Positions 30,573-31,852 of a stretch of DNA of 33,482 nucleotides are shown one piece after another. How positions within the stretch are numbered: position 1 is the first letter of the stretch; each line of letters opens with the position of its first letter. The notes under the pieces were generated by a model. That model saw only the letters and a program-made list of their open reading frames with translations. It was not told the DNA's origin and did no database searches. A program made the translations under genes and the position numbers. The DNA is from Deltaproteobacteria bacterium. GTDB taxonomy: Bacteria; Desulfobacterota; Syntrophorhabdia; Syntrophorhabdales; Syntrophorhabdaceae. The DNA is taken from positions 1-33,482 of the forward strand of contig JAKQBZ010000214.1 in NCBI GenBank assembly GCA_029559435.1, written 5' to 3'.

Positions 30573-30845
30573 CTACTTGACCGTTTTCCTGAACAACGGC
30601 GATGCTGAAAACTTTGGCACCTTCTTTGCTGCAATCTTCATCGGTTTTCCGGTTCTTGGGTTCCTCCCGTTACGGGCCTTTCTTTTCGCTACCGAAAAGG
30701 TTCCGAAACCAACGAGACTGAGCTTATCGCCTTTCTTCATAACTTCTTTCAGCACATCGACAACGCAGTTTACCGCCTTTTCTGCCTGCGCTTTGCTGAA
30801 TTTTGTCTTTGCCGCTACTTTTTCGATGAATGCTGCCTTTGTCAT
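30573..30845 (-). CDS. hup: DNA-binding protein HU
   Basis: A 90-residue HU/IHF-family nucleoid protein with MTKAAFIEKVAAKT start, GFGTFSVAKRKARNGRNPRTGKPM and the DNA-minor-groove arm, and a basic C-terminus. AGGAGGTGA lies seven bases ahead of the ATG. The gap upstream holds a 20-base palindrome (30905-30924). It shares its neighbourhood with two other basic small proteins, the 18-residue microprotein and the RHH protein. Confidence 0.96.
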   Translation of the reverse strand: MTKAAFIEKVAAKTKFSKAQAEKAVNCVVDVLKEVMKKGDKLSLVGFGTFSVAKRKARNGRNPRTGKPMKIAAKKVPKFSASPLFRKTVK

Positions 30846-30904: not shown

Positions 30905-30924
30905 TTCGAAACCATAGTTTCGAA
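30905..30924. promoter_or_regulatory. 20-base palindromic operator candidate upstream of HU
   Basis: TTCGAAAC (30905-30912), CATA spacer, GTTTCGAA (30917-30924): perfect 8-base arms, about 60 bases upstream of the HU ATG. It has the size of a dimeric repressor site. No T-tract follows, arguing against a terminator. The nearby RHH protein is one possible binder; inference only. Confidence 0.5.
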
Positions 30925-31019: not shown

Positions 31020-31042
31020 GGGAAGGGGCTTTCGCCCCTCCC
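31020..31042 (-). terminator. GC-rich hairpin after the microprotein gene
   Basis: On the minus strand GGGAGGGGC, GAAA loop, GCCCCTTCCC starting directly after the microprotein TAA. The stem has one bulged base and a stable GAAA loop, but no T-tract, so it may act as an mRNA 3' stabiliser rather than a terminator. Confidence 0.5.
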
Positions 31043-31099
31043 TTATTTCTTCTTACCTGTTGCTTTCTTCTTTGTTGCTGCTTTCTTCTTTGTTGCCAT
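31043..31099 (-). CDS. 18-residue lysine-rich microprotein
   Basis: The complete product would be MATKKKAATKKKATGKKK: nine lysines, with an ATKKKA repeat, resembling the basic tails of histone H1-like and HU-type bacterial proteins. Evidence that it is a gene: GGGGGTGAT, an almost perfect anti-16S match, is five bases ahead of the ATG; it starts 19 bases after the RHH stop; and a hairpin follows the stop. Likely to bind DNA or RNA electrostatically, perhaps modulating HU or RHH. No family is recognised. Too short for usual gene finders. Confidence 0.6.
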   Translation of the reverse strand: MATKKKAATKKKATGKKK

Positions 31100-31118
31100 T
31101 ATGTATCACCCCCTTTCC

Positions 31119-31301
31119 TTAGAGTTTTTGCTCCCTTTCGTCCAGCTCGATCCTTCCTCTGCGTATCAGTAATCTCAGGAACGTTGATACATTCATCCCG
31201 AGAGTGGAAGCCCTCTTTTCCAGAATCTCAAACTCTTCCTTGCTCAGTCGAACTATAACCGGAACCGATTTCTTTTCTGCCTCTGCCTTTTTCTTCCCCA
31301 T
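31119..31301 (-). CDS. Small ribbon-helix-helix-type regulator
   Basis: 60 residues: a lysine-rich head (MGKKKAEAEKKS), a strand VPVIVRLS, then two helices (KEEFEILEKRASTLGM and NVSTFLRLLIRRGR). The pattern fits the MetJ/Arc (RHH) fold, in which a strand pair enters the DNA major groove. GGGAT lies six bases upstream of the ATG. It is first in an operon with the microprotein, driven by a perfect consensus promoter. Target sites are unknown; autoregulation is plausible. Antitoxin-like, but no toxin gene is adjacent. Confidence 0.82.
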   Translation of the reverse strand: MGKKKAEAEKKSVPVIVRLSKEEFEILEKRASTLGMNVSTFLRLLIRRGRIELDEREQKL

Positions 31302-31326: not shown

Positions 31327-31356
31327 ATTATAAATATATTAAAAATATCTTGTCAA
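31327..31356 (-). promoter_or_regulatory. Perfect consensus promoter of the RHH-microprotein operon
   Basis: Minus strand: TTGACA (31356-31351), 18-base spacer, TATAAT (31332-31327). Start site predicted near 31320, giving a leader of about 19 bases. TTATA and TATAA half-sites overlap the -10 region, compatible with repression. The strongest promoter match in the window. Confidence 0.75.
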
Positions 31357-31678
31357 TAAAATAATAATTTTTTTTTATATAATATTTATATTAAAATAAT
31401 TTTTATATATATTTTATATATTATTTTACTTATTTTTTAAATCTATTATATATTTAATTAAAGTTTATATTATACTTATTAGTAAATTTAATTATATTTT
31501 ATATAATTATTTTATATTTATTTTTAATATTTTATATATTTTTTGTTATACACTATATATGAGAAAATGCATTGCGCGTAGCGTAAAAAAGTTCATAGCT
31601 GATCGCAAATCCTAAATAGGATTTCGATATTAAAATACTTTAGAGTTTCATAAGCTGATAGCTGTCTTTAAAATATCT
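31357..31678. other. Extreme AT-rich tract plus repeat fragments
   Basis: From 31361 to 31540 there are only five G or C in 180 bases, in a genome of about half GC. It consists of runs of T, TATAT and TTTAAT words, with no coding potential. From 31590 to 31668 follow fragments of the E and C repeat families (AGTTCATAGCTGATCGC, AAATCCTAAATAGGATTTCG, CATAAGCTGATAGCTG). The plus-strand gene promoter should be here. No gene. Confidence 0.8.
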
Positions 31679-31852
31679 ATGGCGTTTGTTCCAGGATGCT
31701 GCTACATTTATTACAAGAATGTTCTGCCGATACCTGGCAAGGTTCGCTATGGCGGTGATCCCGTGAACCCCTGGATGACACAGCTACAGGAAAAGCTTGC
31801 CGCAGAGGGCATCCTGTCGGATCCTCAAAAGGCGCTGTTTGTGCCGCAGTAG
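31679..31852 (+). pseudogene. In-frame N-terminal fragment of the dehydrogenase-like gene, ending at TAG
   Basis: 57 codons from ATG 31679 to TAG 31850-31852: begins MAFVPGCCYIYYKNVLPIPG, and includes YGGDPVNPWMTQLQEKLAAE. The TAG is in the same frame as the 440-codon dehydrogenase-like frame downstream (31889), with 12 further sense codons between (HYADTVDEFIGQ). The CAG preceding and a likely CAG origin of the TAG make a single C-to-T nonsense change the simplest explanation. No ribosome site is obvious upstream, and the left flank is repeat. I do not recognise the fragment itself. Confidence 0.45.

Follow-up and report, generated by a model that had tools for sequence, protein, structure and literature searches.

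A lysine-rich 18-residue open reading frame conserved behind a ribbon-helix-helix gene in Syntrophorhabdus-like bacteria

The minus strand of positions 31099-31043 of the window, the 33,482-nucleotide stretch of DNA analysed here, carries a microORF of 18 residues, MATKKKAATKKKATGKKK, nine of them lysine, that ends in a TAA stop. A sequence-only reading had placed an unannotated lysine-rich microprotein at these positions; the reading frame does exist, but its strand, which had been left unstated, is the minus strand. The plus strand across the same interval translates as LFLLTCC... and not as the microprotein. The microORF lies behind a gene for a ribbon-helix-helix (RHH) protein in a two-gene operon; the features of the region are:

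31340-31560, no strand: very AT-rich region upstream of the operon, 80-95% AT per 100 bases
31327-31356, minus strand: sigma-70 promoter of the RHH-microORF operon, TTGACA-18-TATAAT, 12/12 matches
31119-31301, minus strand: RHH protein, 60 aa, NikA-like, PF21983 at 39.1 bits against a cut-off of 27
31105-31115, minus strand: Shine-Dalgarno sequence of the microORF, AAGGGGGTGAT, replaced by AAGGAGGTGA in some relatives
31043-31099, minus strand: microORF, 18 aa, MATKKKAATKKKATGKKK, stop TAA, intact at 15 loci in 14 genomes
31021-31042, minus strand: hairpin directly 3' of the microORF stop, -19.2 kcal/mol, z -2.7
30573-30845, minus strand: HU-family protein, 90 aa, PF00216 at 104.8 bits, at this place in the window's family only

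The remaining features that had been read from the window were borne out. Half of the residues (9 of 18) are lysine, the ribosome site described as near-perfect differs by one base from the anti-Shine-Dalgarno complement AAGGAGGTGAT, the ATG at 31099 follows the RHH stop at 31119 after a short gap of 19 nt, and the hairpin (GGGAGGGGC-GAAA-GCCCCTTCCC) begins at the very next base after the stop. On the minus strand this hairpin (31042-31021) lacks a T-run and therefore does not qualify as a classical intrinsic terminator; hairpins of differing sequence occupy the same place in other genera. The lysine fraction of 0.50 is an extreme outlier among the 95 Shine-Dalgarno-preceded ORFs of 10-60 aa in the window, where no other ORF of 15 aa or longer exceeds 0.20, and 60 simulated second-order Markov windows reached 0.30 at most.

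Two further observations concern the DNA upstream of the operon. One is an AT-rich stretch of about 220 bases, with AT reaching 95%, which most members of the window's family (f1) share, locus L004 less strongly. The other is a TAG in frame, at about 31850-31852, within a divergent gene related to Fe-ADH_2 (PF13685; 31679-33211, plus strand). The relatives L004 and L005 have Gln at this position; the TAG is likely a nonsense change or an assembly error, or else the gene starts later.

Relatives were surveyed by a DNA search of 60 relatives and by an RHH profile search of the order (46 genomes). Together they found the RHH gene in 15 genomes, one of them as a contig-end fragment. An intact microORF follows this RHH gene at 15 loci in 14 genomes, spanning seven genera (g1, g6, g7, g13, g14, g17 and g18) and three families. 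Every RHH gene with enough sequence 3' of it is followed by a lysine-rich microORF that has a strong Shine-Dalgarno sequence, the copy in genome G038 being eroded. The pair occurs in Syntrophorhabdus-like bacteria, and the RHH gene is a reliable anchor for finding further copies, the peptide sequence itself being uninformative.

Most g1 loci carry MATKKKAATKKKATGKKK; the other versions are MATKKKAAPKKKATGKKK, MAVKKKVATKKKVTGKKK, MAVKKKAAAKKKATKKK, MATKKKATTKKKATGKKK, MAEKKKAAEKKKAAKKKK, MPAKKKAPAKKKAPAKKK (family f2), MPTKKKAAPKKAAPKKKAPAKKK and MPTKKKAPAKKTATKKAPAKKK. They are 17, 18, 22 or 23 aa long, and all changes in length are multiples of three. Triplets of lysine that recur about every six residues, with small residues between them, are conserved, and the non-lysine positions are limited to small or H1-tail-type residues (A, T, P, V, G, E). 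All nine lysines and all lysine triplets are kept in every 18-residue version while codons drift synonymously; of the five variable columns within g1, four are third positions. The same base changes were placed at random in a composition-controlled test and the amino-acid changes compared: five base changes between L021 and L012 cause no amino-acid change (P=0.002), L014 and L016 differ by 5 amino-acid changes against 8.8 expected (P=0.007), and L003 and L014 by 1 against 3.3 (P=0.04), the pairs being partly non-independent and single within-genus pairs too alike for significance. Judged from these substitutions, the lysines are under purifying selection.

The comparison of codons with the ribosome site that had been proposed as a check thus finds lysine kept through synonymous drift and the strong Shine-Dalgarno sequence kept as well. 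TTGACA lies upstream of the RHH gene in every relative whose upstream sequence was inspected, and both it and the strong Shine-Dalgarno sequence are retained while the adjacent DNA drifts. Conservation across three families settles the existence of the microORF. The proposal of an unannotated lysine-rich microprotein is upheld by a frame that is conserved, by length changes that preserve it, by synonymous drift and by retention of the ribosome site and promoter; from this pattern it is very probably a real protein-coding gene. That the frame is instead spurious, lying in a conserved RNA element with no peptide made, is very unlikely. Within the genus the region is conserved at the DNA level, as such an element would require, but third positions drift with lysine kept, lengths change only in multiples of three and the strong Shine-Dalgarno sequence persists. 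We rejected this candidate, as an Rfam search of the region returned chance-level scores only and no family.

Frame-breaking changes among relatives with conserved surroundings had been named as the observation that would speak against the microprotein. The single broken frame is in G038, where ssb on the flank and the der-like segment that comes next are still in place, and the RHH gene is eroded there too: it lacks residues inside the conserved FLRLLIR segment and matches the RHH profile at E 6.5e-19, against 1e-31 or lower for full-length copies. This joint decay supports linkage of the RHH gene and the microORF and does not speak against the gene; the frame break may be a sequencing error in an A-run. 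We also rejected the microORF as a C-terminal tail of the RHH protein reached by readthrough or frameshifting: the distance from the RHH stop to the ATG varies and the frame is not fixed. At L010, the 3' half of the RHH gene is partly repeated downstream of the microORF (G011:C28:4505-4591), which suggests a partial duplication.

The genes that follow the pair differ between families (names of context genes are from inspection of translations). Nearly every f1 copy examined is followed by HU, whose gene in the window (30845-30573) starts 197 nt after the microORF stop; in f2, a convergent cysK-like or MBL-fold hydrolase gene comes next; and in f3, the pair stands alone between ssb (divergent) and der (convergent). 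Because the pair recurs in unrelated contexts across families, the RHH gene and the microORF form, on this comparative evidence, a conserved unit of which HU is not part. The earlier suggestion that the peptide tunes HU is weakened accordingly by the confinement of HU to the window's family, and we have low confidence in an HU-specific role. The constant pairing of the two genes makes the companion suggestion, that the peptide tunes RHH, possible. The palindrome TTCGAAACTATGGTTTCGAA (30905-30924), which lies upstream of HU, is a possible operator.

The same contexts bear on a cis-acting role, in which the nine lysine codons and the hairpin would control HU transcription or translation and the peptide itself would be inert. 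A run of lysine codons, a stable hairpin at once and then HU is the order seen in the window's family. A leader or attenuator implies a regulated gene on the same strand after every copy, however, and in f2 and f3 the next gene is convergent, leaving nothing to attenuate, yet the peptide is still kept. No hairpin directly follows the stop in f2, and attenuation needs no restriction of the non-lysine residues to A, T, P, V, G and E. We therefore rejected an HU attenuator and regard cis-acting control as very unlikely.

As a NikA-like RHH protein above the Pfam cut-off, the constant upstream partner is expected to be a DNA-binding dimer, and its N-terminus is lysine-rich. An RHH gene followed by a small ORF is also the order of many type II toxin-antitoxin operons, which raises the prospect of an RHH antitoxin with a cationic mini-toxin that could be harmful in excess. 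The RHH fold, the patchy distribution within the family and the existence of a genome with several RHH copies, of which two have a microORF in view, would fit. No type II toxin is known to be so small or so low in complexity, however, and the peptides are 17-23 low-complexity residues, the 23-aa variant matching no NCBIfam model. The RHH protein passes the NikA-like cut-off but reaches only 15.8 of 28 bits for the Pfam CopG_antitoxin model, and has no match in plasmid, phage or viral collections. A toxin-antitoxin pair is thus highly improbable. An origin in a mobile element was rejected: besides the lack of an RHH match in those collections, the neighbours are chromosomal (sulfatase, GGDEF, DUF3313).

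Elsewhere in the phylum, other families have short lysine-rich ORFs (L017, L060, L065, L066, L077 and L078) that lack an RHH neighbour and were rejected as orthologues; outside the order, at L077 (MATKKKAAKKPAKKTSKK), inspection had suggested a possible pairing with an RHH remnant, but a profile search gave no match and the pairing is not claimed. Three of these loci (L017, L065 and L066, from one other family) carry a 20-21 aa ORF of the MPTKKKAAKKKAKKPAKKKK type with a strong Shine-Dalgarno sequence, flanked by the inverted repeat GGTCGCCCGGGGTAATC ... GATTACCCCGGGCGACC and present essentially once per genome. Another small K/A/P-rich protein, of 29-59 aa (MATKKAAPKKAAAKKP...), lies downstream of a VTT/DedA-looking gene at L002 (G000:C77), L023, L026 and L019; its repeat number varies between species, and the gene after it at L002 encodes a 64-aa protein whose tail is similar and whose end is Cys-rich. 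The separate 59-aa K/A/P protein scored 22.7 of 80 bits for NF038053, below the cut-off.

We consider it somewhat more probable than not that the microprotein is a free, H1-tail-like polycation that binds nucleic acid beside the co-made RHH protein, a reading favoured by its H1-tail-type composition and by parallels with AlgP and Hc2. It would be made abundantly from the strong sigma-70 promoter of the two-gene operon, which the RHH protein probably autoregulates. No fold is expected, as 18 residues leave no room for one; the peptide would be disordered and act by charge, about +9 over its length, as a free-standing counterpart of the lysine/alanine/proline tails that bacterial H1-like proteins carry. 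It may bind DNA (or RNA) non-specifically, neutralising or bridging nucleic acid, and may help the RHH dimer, with its lysine-rich N-terminus, to coat or compact DNA. The condensation of nucleic acid put forward in the sequence-only reading could fit, given the H1-tail-like composition of the variants. KPAA peptides of AlgP bind DNA in vitro (PMC9239181), and Hc2, which carries lysine pentamers, varies in length by whole repeat units without loss of frame (PMC2848022).

Against this weighs the simplicity of the sequence, for which rRNA, mRNA or polyphosphate is chemically as plausible a partner as DNA. It also counts against it that most genera in the window's family lack the pair, which is therefore dispensable at that level. 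The peptide could be real and yet serve the ribosome, RNA or polyphosphate as a counter-ion or chaperone, its link to the RHH gene being one of shared regulation only. Composition by itself does not single out one polyanion, AlgP, itself H1-like, is associated with polyphosphate granules (PMC9239181), and the affinity of Hc2 for RNA is higher than that of Hc1 (PMC2848022). That the gene stays paired with one for a DNA-binding RHH protein across unrelated contexts instead favours a joint role on DNA, and we rate a target other than DNA as unlikely, if well short of negligible. Returning to the nucleic-acid binder, a more specific form of it is offered tentatively, as possible but rather doubtful: a detached histone tail acting in trans, in which the RHH dimer reads sequence and a separate polylysine-type gene neutralises charge. 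If it does work in trans with RHH, the peptide would be an unusually small DNA-packaging factor and would offer a clean way to ask if a basic, disordered tail must be covalently joined to its DNA-binding domain. A limited literature search found no described lysine microprotein of comparable kind; annotation pipelines generally skip 18-codon genes, and a charge-only protein kept in three families would normally be missed.

Among known systems, the RHH partner belongs with the NikA-like and CopG-type proteins (PF21983, PF01402), but here it has chromosomal neighbours, with no relaxase among those scanned, and a lysine-rich N-terminus; this form was found only in the window's order in a sample of 395 genomes of the phylum. 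The C-terminal KPAA domain of Pseudomonas AlgP and PhaF consists of Lys-Pro-Ala repeats, to which the f2 variant MPAKKKAPAKKKAPAKKK is similar in composition, but it is a 154-aa tail on a folded protein, whereas the microprotein is without any folded domain. The H1-like proteins (Chlamydia Hc2 and Bordetella BpH1; NF038053 and NF038052) have the same lysine repeats with Ala, Thr, Pro and Val, and the microprotein versions likewise are Lys/Ala/Pro-rich repeats whose lengths shift by repeat units; the 23-aa variant, however, matches no curated model of this family. At 18 residues, against 165-237 for C. trachomatis Hc2, the microprotein is far shorter than any H1-like protein cited, which counts against the H1-tail reading, and its gene sits instead in a constant operon with an RHH gene.
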